Assembly (NCBI RefSeq): GCF_001597725.1
Contig: NZ_LUTR01000029.1
Span: forward strand, 1-38,086
Source of the DNA: Neptuniibacter marinus
GTDB lineage: Bacteria > Pseudomonadota > Gammaproteobacteria > Pseudomonadales > Balneatricaceae
DNA: 38,086 nucleotides
Direction of reading: 5' to 3'
Position numbers and translations under genes: made by a program. Numbering within the stretch: position 1 is the first letter of the stretch; each line of letters opens with the position of its first letter. This document shows positions 1,606 to 8,221 of the stretch, in pieces. Under the pieces are notes generated by a model that worked only from the letters and a program-made list of their open reading frames with translations, had not been told where the DNA came from and did not search any database.

Positions 1606-2796
1606 ATGAAGATAATTATTCGGTCTATAGAAAAACAGTATCAGCAACTACTTGATCAATCCCAACTATCACCGGACCTTGCACAAACAGAGGTTGTTAA
1701 ACAACTTCAGCAGCAACTAAACCACCTTTCTCATAAACCGATAAAGTGGGGTAAAAGATGGTTCGATAAACCGCCTTCTAGCCTTGGCATTTATATCTGG
1801 GGGCCTGTAGGTCGAGGCAAAACAATGCTAATGGATCTATTTTGCCAATGCCTAGCACCAAAGACTTATATCAGACTCCATTTTCATCGCTTCATGGTGA
1901 TGGTTCATCAACAACTTTTTTTACATTCAGGAAAACCCGATCCTTTAGCTCATATTGCCAACAAACTGAGTCTTAAATACAAGGTAATATGCTTCGATGA
2001 GTTTTTTGTCTCTGACATTGGTGATGCCATGTTATTAGGACGGCTTTATCAGGCTCTGTTCTCCAAAGGGGTCACCATTATCAGCACATCAAATATAGAA
2101 CCCGATGATCTATACTCAGACGGCCTTCACCGTGATCGATTCCTGCCCACGATCAAATTAATCAAGGACAATATGCAGGTCATTCCTCTAGATAATGGCA
2201 ACGATCACCGCCTCAGTTACTTAGCTTCAAACCCAGCTTATTTTATTCAAGATAACCAAGCCTTAAAAAAGATCTATTACAAACTAACCCAGCACGAGGC
2301 ACAGCCTAACAGCAACAGCGTCACACTCTGCGGGCGAAAAATTAACTGCATAGCTAGAGACGATTCTGTAATTTGGTTTGATTTTGCCGAACTCTGTGTG
2401 GGCCCAAGATCAGCACGAGATTACATTGAACTTGCTTCGAACTATTCACACCTCATTTTAAGTAACGTCCCACGCTTTCAAGGCCAAAGCAAAGAGCAGA
2501 TAAAAGCGAGAGGAACGGAAGATAGTTATGGCTTATTTAACACCACCGGCTTAAGAAAGGTCGTGCAAAGTAATCATGATGATCCAGCAAGACGCTTTAT
2601 CAGCCTAGTTGATGAGCTTTATGACTGTAGAGTAAATTTATATCTCAGCGCAGAAGACACTGCAGAGCAACTCTACAAGGGGGTTCTATTGAAAAAACCA
2701 TTCAAGAGAACACTCAGTCGCTTACATGAAATGTCTTCCACCGCCTATCAAACAACACCCTCTTACGCTGTTAGCGAACGTAAGGATTACTCTTAA
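1606..2796 (+). CDS. zapE: AFG1/ZapE-type cell division ATPase
   Basis: AAA-type ATPase of the AFG1/ZapE family, which in E. coli associates with the FtsZ ring under some growth conditions. Of 396 residues, Walker A GPVGRGKT lies at 66-73 and Walker B VICFDEF at 127-133. The family's LCxGPRSxxDYIELA block appears near residue 265. The E. coli protein is about 375 residues, so this copy is full length. The ATG at 1606 has no strong Shine-Dalgarno, and a TATAAT at 1591-1596 lies only ten bases upstream, so the mRNA leader may be very short (inference). The 3' end overlaps the convergent metallo-hydrolase gene by 26 bases. Confidence 0.92.
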   Translation: MKIIIRSIEKQYQQLLDQSQLSPDLAQTEVVKQLQQQLNHLSHKPIKWGKRWFDKPPSSLGIYIWGPVGRGKTMLMDLFCQCLAPKTYIRLHFHRFMVMVHQQLFLHSGKPDPLAHIANKLSLKYKVICFDEFFVSDIGDAMLLGRLYQALFSKGVTIISTSNIEPDDLYSDGLHRDRFLPTIKLIKDNMQVIPLDNGNDHRLSYLASNPAYFIQDNQALKKIYYKLTQHEAQPNSNSVTLCGRKINCIARDDSVIWFDFAELCVGPRSARDYIELASNYSHLILSNVPRFQGQSKEQIKARGTEDSYGLFNTTGLRKVVQSNHDDPARRFISLVDELYDCRVNLYLSAEDTAEQLYKGVLLKKPFKRTLSRLHEMSSTAYQTTPSYAVSERKDYS

Positions 2797-3400
2797 TCTC
2801 AACACCCAATGTTGAGCGCGGGCCATGACCAGGAATAAACTCGACAGATTCACCTAAAGGAAACAGCTTCATTTTGATAGAATCGATCAGCTCTTGGTGA
2901 TTACCTTTAGGAAAATCAGTTCGACCAATAGAGCCATGGAATATTACATCTCCAACCAATGCCATCTGATCTTTCTCATTATAAAAAACAACATGACCTG
3001 GAGTATGTCCGGGACAGTGGATTACCTGAAAAACACCATCACCCACCTTAACCTCATCTCCATCATCCAACCATCGATCCGGCGTAAAAGAGTCACAATG
3101 TGGAAAATTAAACATTGAGCATTGCTGCGACATGCCTTCTATCCAAAAAAGATCACCTTTATGAGGCCCCTCAATAGGGAGACCTTTATTAGCCGATAAC
3201 TCAGCCGTGCCACCAGCATGATCTATATGGGCATGAGTAAGCATGATCTTTTCCACCAGCACACCCTCCTCTTCAACCGCCATTAATATCCGATCCAAAT
3301 CACCACCAGGGTCAACAATCGCTGCCTTTTTTGTATGCTCGCACCACACTAGAGTGCAGTTTTGCTGGAAAGGCGTTACAGGGATAGTCCGATATTTCAT
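2771..3400 (-). CDS. MBL-fold metallo-hydrolase, YcbL/glyoxalase II type
   Basis: Metallo-beta-lactamase-fold hydrolase resembling E. coli YcbL, a type II glyoxalase-like enzyme that binds two metals; its physiological substrate is uncertain. In 209 residues the ligands are all present: THAHIDH with H56, H58, D60 and H61, H132 in PGHTPGH, D151 in VGDV and H192 in PGHG. I start at ATG 3400, six bases after AGAG; in-frame ATG 3406 and an upstream extension to 3436 are less likely. A minus-strand TATAAT at 3435-3440 could be its own promoter. Its tail overlaps zapE by 26 bases. It is also the first same-direction gene downstream of the c-di-GMP riboswitch at 3902-3986, but about 500 bases away. 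Confidence 0.9.
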   Translation of the reverse strand: MKYRTIPVTPFQQNCTLVWCEHTKKAAIVDPGGDLDRILMAVEEEGVLVEKIMLTHAHIDHAGGTAELSANKGLPIEGPHKGDLFWIEGMSQQCSMFNFPHCDSFTPDRWLDDGDEVKVGDGVFQVIHCPGHTPGHVVFYNEKDQMALVGDVIFHGSIGRTDFPKGNHQELIDSIKMKLFPLGESVEFIPGHGPRSTLGVEIKSNPYVR

Positions 3401-3633
3401 ACTCATCTCTAATATAAACGTGCGACAAAGGCTCATTATATCAGCGGATATAGATTAAAAGACAAGATCTAAAGCGTATCTCTCCACTATCCATAATAAT
3501 ATTTATTTTCACGAGAAAGAAATACAACACCGCTACTGCAGAAAAGGGCATAATGAATAATTAATACAAAGACTTGTTTTTTATCACCTTTCTATTCAAA
3601 GTTAACATTTGAGCATCAAATAGAGTGGCTATT

Positions 3634-3897
3634 ATGAAAAAGCACAAACATGAAGCAGAGCTAGTCAAGGAAGCACTTCGCATCGGCTCCATTTACATAG
3701 AAAAACGGGGTGCGGGCCAATTTGAATCTACAGATAGCGCATCAAATAAAATTACTGCCATTTATAGATTATTAGTACAAGATGGGCTCATTCAGCCGCT
3801 AGCCAAAGGCCAAGACAACGAAATCAACATGAGACATAAGCTGGCACTCTGGATCGAGAGACAACTTCCAGCAGAGCACCCTTTAAAACAGAAATAG
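3634..3897 (+). CDS. small DUF5062-like protein of unknown function
   Basis: Predicted soluble, charged protein of 87 residues without signal peptide or membrane segment. It has an ALRIGSIYIEKRG block near the N-terminus and a KLALWIERQLPAEHPL block at the C-terminus. From memory these match the DUF5062 family of Vibrio, Shewanella and marine relatives; I could not verify it by search. No biochemical role is known to me. I start at ATG 3634, preceded by GAGTGG; a GTG at 3625 is in frame but overlaps that site. The stop is only a few bases from the 3' end of a c-di-GMP riboswitch encoded on the opposite strand, whose transcript would run antisense through this whole gene. Confidence 0.75.
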   Translation: MKKHKHEAELVKEALRIGSIYIEKRGAGQFESTDSASNKITAIYRLLVQDGLIQPLAKGQDNEINMRHKLALWIERQLPAEHPLKQK

Positions 3898-3901
3898 TAA
3901 A

Positions 3902-3986
3902 CCTCTCTTTCGGTAGCCCAGCCATCCCTAAGGATCTGTGACTTTGCGTCCTAAGATTACTCTAAGTTTGCCGTTATCGAGAGAGG
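3902..3986 (-). ncRNA. c-di-GMP-I (GEMM) riboswitch, orphan or antisense-oriented
   Basis: The minus strand carries the conserved blocks of the class I c-di-GMP riboswitch in order: GGCAAAC (3966-3972), a P2 hairpin with a GUAA tetraloop (a GNRA loop, as expected), GGACGCAAAG (ending at 3942), a P3 arm and GGGCTACCG (3911-3919). The ends pair as P1, CCTCTCT with AGAGAGG (3980-3986 with 3902-3908). The gene just downstream, 3634-3897, is on the opposite strand. The first minus-strand gene, the MBL hydrolase, starts 500 bases on. No terminator hairpin is visible immediately after the aptamer. I infer it controls an antisense or very long-leader transcript. A weak -10-like TATTTT lies at 4010-4015. 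Confidence 0.85.
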
Positions 3987-4178
3987 ATCTATTCGCTGGA
4001 ACAAGACTTAAAATACCTCTACACTTAATTAGCTAACCAAATGTTCAGGCTCTTCAAGTCCTCTACAAGGTTAGCAGAGTTACAAGATTTTGCTAAATAA
4101 TGATTTCAAATAAATGACAAGAACTAGACTAATATTCACAGACAACTAAATCAGTGACAGAACAAAGGCCAAACGCTA

Positions 4179-4664
4179 ATGAATCATCCGATAAACGAGC
4201 CATCTCCAAGTAATCGCAACGATTTTTTAGAATGTCTTCGCTTGATTGAACGTCTTCACCGACGAATCTTAGATATTCTAAAATTCAGACTTGAAGCACT
4301 CGGATATACGGATATCAACAGTGTACAAGCACTTCTTTTACATAATATTGCTGACCGCGAGATGACCGCTGGTGAACTGCGCACACGCGGCTATTACTTA
4401 GGCTCGAATGTTTCATATAATCTAAAAAAAATGGTCAGCAACGGATACATAATTCAAGAACGCTCAGAACATGATCTACGCTCAATCCGCATAAAACTAA
4501 GCCCTAAAGGCCTAAATATACATACTCTAATTTCTGAACTTTTCGATCAGCAACTTGAATTAATCAATGCCGAGCAAGTGTTACAAGGGGGCGACTTTAA
4601 CCCACTACGCGAACAGCTCCGCCATTTAGAGACTTTTTGGGATCAGCAAGTTAGTTGTTACTAG
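4179..4664 (+). CDS. MarR-type winged-helix transcriptional regulator (LdtR-like)
   Basis: Predicted cytosolic DNA-binding regulator of 161 residues. An N-terminal helical dimerisation part (about 14-45) is followed by a winged helix-turn-helix. The likely recognition helix is at 75-90 (GSNVSYNLKKMVSNGY), and a charged wing with Arg95, Asp99, Arg101 and Arg104 follows. The run GYTDINSVQALLLHNI and the GELRTRGYYLGSNVSYNLKK block closely resemble, from memory, the LdtR regulators of alphaproteobacteria, which control an L,D-transpeptidase and envelope genes. Here no such target is adjacent. The 3' end overlaps the convergent small membrane-protein gene by 14 bases. Family assignment is firm; LdtR function is inference. 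Confidence 0.85.
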   Translation: MNHPINEPSPSNRNDFLECLRLIERLHRRILDILKFRLEALGYTDINSVQALLLHNIADREMTAGELRTRGYYLGSNVSYNLKKMVSNGYIIQERSEHDLRSIRIKLSPKGLNIHTLISELFDQQLELINAEQVLQGGDFNPLREQLRHLETFWDQQVSCY

Positions 4665-4962: not shown

Positions 4963-7723
<2,761 letters not shown>

Positions 7724-7751: not shown

Positions 7752-7787
7752 AGAAAAAATTATTGAATTGATTTGAGATTATCAACA

Positions 7788-7862
7788 TCTGGGTTTCCTA
7801 CGCCGGAATAAACCGGATCAGGTTCAACGGGTATAGTCTCAGCCCTATAGGGCACCCCGACC
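7788..7862 (-). ncRNA. TPP riboswitch (THI element)
   Basis: The minus strand carries the conserved TPP aptamer segments: GTCGGGGTGCCC at the 5' end, GGGCTGAGA, ACCCGTTGAACCTGATC, CCGGTT with its paired CCGG arm, then GCGTAGGAAACCCAGATG. Order and spacing fit the family. It lies about 65 bases upstream of the thiD start, in the same direction, and so controls thiD-thiC by thiamine pyrophosphate feedback. Confidence 0.95.
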
Positions 7863-8221
7863 AAAAACGCCTATCAGTTTAAGTCCCCTCCCCCCATATG
7901 TCCAGTAAACAGAAAAAACTCATGACTAGCCAAAATCTAAGATACAGGGTCAAAAAAAGAAACTTTATTACCTGCTACGTAATCTAAACCCAGAGATCAA
8001 CGATCACAATGCCCCAACTGGACAAATATCAAACAGATAAAATATCAGGGTTATCCATTCGATAACTATCTTTTTGCCTCCATCAAAAGATAGGAAATCG
8101 TCAAAAGCCACCTAATAGATTAAAACAAGCGTTCCACTCACAATTCAAACTGAAAATTTCCATTAGCTTAGCTAGACCGAAAATTAGGAATTTTTCTTAT
8201 ATCAATACTCCCCGTAAAGGG

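Follow-up and report, generated by a model that had tools for sequence, protein, structure and literature searches.

A conserved c-di-GMP-I riboswitch of Neptuniibacter lies tail-to-tail with a DUF5062 gene and may head an antisense RNA

The window, i.e., the whole 38,086-nt stretch of Neptuniibacter marinus DNA that was analysed, carries a c-di-GMP-I riboswitch on the minus strand between a convergent DUF5062 gene and a divergent gene for an LdtR-like MarR-type regulator (Table 1). Scanning the window with cmscan at gathering scores returned two RNAs, both on the minus strand. One is the c-di-GMP-I-GGC aptamer (RF03167, 61.0 bits, E = 3.7e-12, 3981..3908; gathering score 59), which the c-di-GMP-I model RF01051 also matched with 60 bits at 3982..3909 (cut-off 35). 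Neither model gave a second match at E <= 0.001 in the 3.45-Mb assembly to which the window belongs. With the P1 stem included, the aptamer extends from 3986 to 3902. The GGCAAAC motif, the GNRA loop (GTAA), GGACGCAAAG and GGGCTACCG were all found within it, in agreement with the first-pass annotation, which had described a well-preserved aptamer reading on the minus strand. The other RNA is a TPP riboswitch (RF00059, 75.3 bits, 7778-7869) upstream of thiC and a same-strand ORF (7735-6908) that we take to resemble a ThiD-type kinase; it represents an ordinary thiamine operon leader.

The distance from the stop codon of the DUF5062 gene is 4 bases to the P1 stem and 10 bases to the Rfam match, confirming that a plus-strand gene of this family abuts the aptamer. 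Its product is 100% identical in Neptuniibacter sp. 1_MG-2023, and the structure search matched one solved, uncharacterised protein (2m4e, E = 6.2e-8). We found no paper naming the family in the open-licence literature. The next gene on the riboswitch strand encodes a metallo-beta-lactamase-fold hydrolase, whose ATG at 3400 lies 508 bases past the aptamer and is preceded by a promoter-like element of its own, TGATATAAT; both the distance of about 500 bases and the separate promoter had been proposed beforehand. The MarR-type regulator scored 184.9 bits against NF047395, under the cut-off of 250. No conserved small ORF past the aptamer was seen by eye.

Table 1. Positions of the features discussed in the text. 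CHAD genes are numbered within their own loci.
Feature	Position	Strand	Basis
c-di-GMP-I (GGC subtype) aptamer with closing P1, P2 with GNRA loop, and P3	3902..3986	minus	covariance models and alignment
17-nt block TTCCAGCGAATAGATCC, immediately 5' of the aptamer and reaching into P1	3985..4001	minus	0 differences, 17 columns, 9 genomes
Extended -10 promoter-like element TGCTAACCT of the putative riboswitch transcript	4068..4076	minus	consensus match only
TTTAGC, possible -35, 18 nt 5' of the -10 hexamer	4092..4097	minus	weak match to TTGACA
DUF5062 gene (87 aa), tail-to-tail with the riboswitch; would be crossed antisense	3634..3897	plus	PF16691, 110.5 bits, E = 4.2e-32
Metallo-beta-lactamase-fold hydrolase gene	2771..3400	minus	PF00753
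Extended -10 of the hydrolase, TGATATAAT	3435..3443	minus	consensus match only
MarR-type regulator gene, LdtR-like, divergent from the riboswitch	4179..4664	plus	PF13463, PF12802
CHAD gene, G002	L033 7124-7900		
CHAD gene, G008	L042 6741-7502		
CHAD gene, G010	L046 6034-5273		
CHAD gene, G007	L040 2948-3661		

The fold of the aptamer was assessed in an alignment of 10 sequences, comprising nine genomes in which the riboswitch and the DUF5062 gene lie tail-to-tail, together with G005; G009, whose copy is decayed, was omitted. Paired cells made up 94.8% of the total, a value reached in 0 of 500 shuffles, and double-sided changes occurred in 9 of the 27 pairs, again equalled in 0 of 500 shuffles. 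The number of further pair types (17) was equalled in 10 of 500. The structure used here was derived partly from the same sequences, and slid controls were 35.6-42.6% paired. Five of the double-change pairs fall in P2 and four in P3, three of the latter depending on G005 alone, and P1 has 0. The pairing of the aptamer is not due to chance. The P2 loop is of the GNRA type in all 10 sequences, and, among the ligand-contact residues G20, A47 and C92 of Vc2, the equivalents of the first two are invariant, based on our own positional mapping of the residues named in PMC4744006. The element is a real, intact and conserved c-di-GMP-I aptamer, with predicted binding of c-di-GMP.

RF01051 and PF16691 were each searched in 144 genomes, including 11 of the genus. 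The riboswitch model matched 42 and the protein family 87 of these, and all 11 Neptuniibacter genomes were among both sets. The minus-strand arrangement relative to DUF5062, whose conservation the first-pass annotation had raised as a question, is kept in nine of the 11 (G000-G004, G006, G007, G008 and G010), with gaps of 10-26 nt between the riboswitch and the DUF5062 stop. A cmscan search detected it in four further Neptuniibacter contigs (L078, L079, L080 and L083), which apparently duplicate four of the nine. In six of the 11 genomes (G000-G004 and G007), the element is the only c-di-GMP-I match. The two exceptions differ in kind. G005 has a high-scoring riboswitch directly before the hydrolase gene, with the MarR gene on its other side, and no DUF5062 gene in the 14-kb stretch; a diverged copy lies elsewhere, in an unrelated neighbourhood (L125 6987-7205, 55% identity over 73 aa), which suggests that the native gene was lost or replaced. 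G009 has DUF5062, MarR and hydrolase genes in place, and the riboswitch between them (L126 ~6540-6640) is decayed, missing the GGCAAAC and GACGCAAAG motifs and giving no covariance match at the locus. In a tree of neighbour proteins, with G007 represented by MarR and DUF5062 only, G005 branches first in the genus and G007 next, with modest support (0.65 and 0.87).

Outside the genus, reading the coordinates by eye in the 144 genomes and in 369 genomes of the class revealed no riboswitch adjacent to DUF5062, although only a limited number of candidates is scored for each genome in these scans, so that weak matches can be lost. The nearest pair on one contig is about 10 kb apart (G508). Likewise, seven DUF5062 loci from other genera (L082, L084-L088 and L090) gave no c-di-GMP riboswitch at the gathering score. 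A divergent pair of DUF5062 and hydrolase genes also occurs in loci of Pontibacterium and Marinobacterium that have no c-di-GMP riboswitch there, some with intervening genes (CHAD in L082 by tblastn; CHAD-like in L084 and L090 by eye). Two Marinobacterium loci carry a Guanidine-I riboswitch shortly past DUF5062 on the same strand (L086 6443-6543, 91.3 bits; L087 6294-6395, 93.3 bits). Within Neptuniibacter, the riboswitch strand of G002, G007, G008 and G010 carries a CHAD gene (PF05235) past DUF5062; it was not found there in the remaining loci of the genus that were searched and is absent at this position from five of the nine tail-to-tail genomes.

Mean pairwise differences, calculated over the nine tail-to-tail genomes with gaps counted and with G005 and G009 omitted, were 0 for a 17-nt block immediately 5' of the aptamer, 0.146 for the aptamer and 0.194 for the extended -10. 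The leader gave 0.572 and the sequence past P1 0.514, the latter close to spacer values, and the fourfold sites of DUF5062 differed in 0.673 of 890 comparisons. Because the block is identical and the aptamer is far below both the leader and the fourfold sites, and because the stems contain compensatory changes, the riboswitch, judged by its substitution pattern, is under purifying selection in the nine genomes.

The riboswitch apparently has its own promoter. An extended -10 of the TGCTA type lies on its strand 54-73 nt 5' of the block in all nine tail-to-tail genomes, and G005 has a TGTTA variant at 49 nt. TTTAGC, TTTAGT or a near variant is present in eight of the nine, with G002 as the exception. 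Regarding the hydrolase, TGATATAAT (TGATATACT in G009) was found 33-43 nt 5' of the ATG in nine of the 10 genomes read, G005 offering weaker -10 candidates only. This element is retained in the three readable genomes with an intervening CHAD gene; the contig of G007 stops within that gene. A stricter sigma-70 scan reported neither the riboswitch nor the hydrolase extended -10.

With its 0 differences, the 17-nt block is the most conserved part of the element, and the aptamer fold does not account for it. G005 has a variant form. Seven other riboswitches of the genus were read, and six of them have AGATCC at the same position. A listed same-strand ORF begins about 61-66 nt past the aptamer in five of the seven (L037, L038, L041, L043 and L045). 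In four of these (L038, L041, L043 and L045), the ORF is 90-115 aa long with a shared C-terminal FYL-type motif, and in L038, L043 and L045 a gene with EAL-like sequence, recognised by eye, lies just upstream of the riboswitch. The 5' flank of these riboswitches pairs with downstream sequence, mostly a GAGGATCT-type stretch, with z values against shuffles of -1.5, -3.2, -3.3, -2.3, -4.8 and -2.8 in the six AGATCC cases and -0.1 in the seventh (L047). Judging from position and letters, the block would be the counterpart of the 5' strand in the switching helix that ordinary riboswitches of the genus have.

The usual partner is missing at the DUF5062 side. GGATCT is absent from the 560 nt downstream in all 10 genomes with the element, and the same stretch has no shared cis partner of the block (mean z -0.7 over the ten genomes). 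The leader provided no partner either (mean z 0.03). Half of a switching helix, invariant in the nine genomes, thus appears to be selected without its usual other half. Individual pairings in G004 (z -5.4) and G003 (z -2.8) were considered as a common partner and dismissed, as the sites differ between genomes. An extended P1, formed by the block and the stretch over the DUF5062 stop, occurs in several MFE folds but stands out against shuffles only in G005. Pairing of the block with the 3' strand of P3 as an anti-aptamer was discarded, since riboswitches lacking the block (L012, L022 and L031) have the GGCTG variant as well.

A loose pattern of the block matched 28 of 116 genomes of the family, and its reversed control also matched. 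The only listed match beside a riboswitch outside the genus (G044:C66) lies 36 nt beyond it on the opposite strand and is of the downstream-partner type; no further matches adjoining listed riboswitches there were seen by eye. A search for trans targets of the block in the 11 genomes, allowing up to three mismatches, gave scattered matches, none with one mismatch and none convincing. These outnumber the matches of the reversed control, which contains CTAG, and some sites are common to two or three species.

The first-pass annotation had reported that no minus-strand terminator follows the aptamer. Two scans bear this out: no terminator-like site was found on the minus strand between the aptamer and the hydrolase in the window, and a scan for conventional terminators with bulges excluded returned 0 for G000. 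Over about 620 nt past the aptamer, the latter scan gave no site in any of G000-G004 or in G010; G006 had a marginal site at 138 nt, and G008 had hairpins at about 45 and 141 nt, both within DUF5062. G005 has a terminator at 70 nt; its P1 comprises at least 12 bp, with TTTTTCTTTTT following. In G007 (L040 ~2598-2625), a strong terminator with the sequence AAGGAGA-GCC-TCTCCTT and a T-rich tail uses the P1 3' strand as its 5' half, and a second terminator lies at 231 nt. Among the nine tail-to-tail genomes, G007 is thus the only one with a conventional terminator in the first 30 nt past the aptamer; tail scores past P1 in the other eight were 1.75-3.47, below 3.73, the 95% point of scores in the antisense DUF5062 background.

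A conserved expression platform inside DUF5062 was considered and rejected, since the 3' end of the gene shows no synonymous constraint: the last three 10-codon bins gave 0.54-0.66 versus 0.41-0.68 elsewhere, so that the last 30 codons are unconstrained. Eight genomes entered this comparison, with the decayed G009 and G003, near-identical to G000, omitted. No ligand-dependent terminator or switch before the antisense stretch, of the kind present in two published cases, is conserved among the nine. Gating by c-di-GMP is suggested by the sequence of G007 only, with the geometry of an ON switch. A terminator adjoining the aptamer may be ancestral and may have been lost in the rest of the genus.

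Starting from features that can be read in the DNA, namely the aptamer, the conserved promoter-like element, the conserved geometry, the missing terminator here and the terminator in G007, we infer transcription, ligand binding, read-through and an effect on DUF5062. The riboswitch RNA would be made from its own promoter between the DUF5062 and MarR-type genes. Past the aptamer, the polymerase would meet no recognisable intrinsic terminator and cross the whole of DUF5062 antisense, an extension predicted provided that the promoter is active. The transcript, or the polymerase traffic, would probably lower DUF5062 output. Binding of c-di-GMP probably alters P1 and hence the share of transcripts extending past the aptamer. 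In the early-branching G007, P1 and the terminator share a strand, which is 3' in P1 and 5' in the terminator; c-di-GMP would therefore favour read-through, making the element an ON switch for the antisense RNA.

We tentatively regard a transcript that binds c-di-GMP and runs antisense across DUF5062 as the best reading, at somewhat less than even confidence. The covarying aptamer, the tail-to-tail geometry in nine of 11 genomes and the TGCTA-type -10 in nine of nine argue for it. Against it stand the lack of a conserved switch and of synonymous constraint, the missing 5'-flank partner, the states of G005 and G009, and an adjacency seen within the genus only. DUF5062 itself is a possible target: the antisense geometry fits, but G005 and G009 respectively have a riboswitch with no DUF5062 beside it and a DUF5062 with a decayed riboswitch. 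A close rival, quite possible though itself doubtful, is a stand-alone c-di-GMP small RNA consisting of promoter, block and aptamer and ending just past P1, which would serve as a store or act in trans via the block, with DUF5062 as a mere neighbour. Conservation covers the block and the aptamer and ends at P1, the block retains one strand (5') of a switching helix with no cis partner, the G005 element with its long P1 has no adjoining DUF5062, G007 has a terminator directly past the aptamer, and the merRNA of Bdellovibrio offers a precedent (PMC3627812). The eight tail-to-tail genomes with no recognisable terminator and tail scores below the background threshold count against such an RNA, as do a block-tail pairing that stands out only in G005 and the lack of a convincing trans target.

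The first-pass annotation had posed a choice between an antisense RNA and a very long leader for the hydrolase. The former side is strengthened by the antisense orientation in nine of 11 genomes; the latter is weakened. As a 5' leader of the hydrolase, and of CHAD in the genomes that have it, with DUF5062 antisense as a by-product, the transcript would fit the next same-strand gene of all 10 intact copies (CHAD in G002, G007, G008 and G010, the hydrolase in the other six) and the G005 riboswitch directly before the hydrolase. We nevertheless judge such a leader quite unlikely, because the hydrolase has its conserved extended -10, even behind an intervening CHAD gene, and because the divergent orientation without a riboswitch in Pontibacterium and Marinobacterium indicates that the orientation was inherited; moreover, five of the nine have no CHAD gene at this position. 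With the hydrolase having its own promoter element, the DUF5062 antisense is the only gene-sized stretch left to act on in those five. Descent from a conventional riboswitch whose gene has disappeared would agree with the AGATCC flank and the downstream ORFs of the other genus riboswitches, the missing downstream half of the switching helix and the decay in G009, but it is very improbable in view of the purifying selection (block 0 and aptamer 0.146 versus leader 0.57 and fourfold sites 0.67) and the compensatory changes in the stems. A broader scheme, in which a genus-wide c-di-GMP-sensing RNA with its own promoter uses the aptamer to gate RNA-RNA action, on DUF5062 antisense in cis and possibly in trans via the 17-nt block, seems unlikely.

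Riboswitches are normally read as leaders, and here a conserved sensor, a promoter-like element and an invariant block occur without a dedicated gene. If the product is an antisense or free RNA, the locus would allow a natural comparative test of c-di-GMP action through non-coding RNA, with the arrangement kept in nine genomes, DUF5062 gone from its place in one, and the riboswitch decayed in one. It would also give a first regulatory handle on DUF5062.

Our searches of the open-licence literature, on which this statement is based, found no description of the Neptuniibacter riboswitch, and the locus appears undescribed. The conventional riboswitches of the genus (L037, L038, L041, L043 and L045) share the aptamer and the 5' AGATCC flank with the DUF5062-side element but have a same-strand ORF 61-66 nt downstream and a GAGGATCT-type flank partner, neither of which the latter possesses. 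The merRNA of Bdellovibrio is an abundant transcript that carries a c-di-GMP riboswitch, with no conserved reading frame behind it (PMC3627812); it is similar in lacking a conserved downstream frame, but its massive expression was demonstrated, whereas the present RNA is a prediction from sequence. According to PMC9943018, the SAM riboswitch antisense to ubiG-mccBA and the B12 riboswitch antisense to pocR also produce a transcript antisense over a gene; there, a terminator forms at high ligand, whereas no conserved terminator was found here. The accessible part of PMC3649979 contains no c-di-GMP case of this kind. The first-pass annotation had stated that none was established, and in the part of PMC9943018 available to us, from which the word 'experimentally' is absent, we saw no experimental test. 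That survey, in the same text, nevertheless lists 152 antisense versus 2,554 sense c-di-GMP riboswitches, the strongest antisense tendency of any family, predicted from orientation in annotated genomes, so that as a class they have already been predicted in print. Its antisense cases share with ours a c-di-GMP-I aptamer transcribed opposite to the neighbouring gene. PMC9943018 is an orientation survey, whereas the present analysis examined genus-wide conservation, the promoter, the 5' block and alternative targets.
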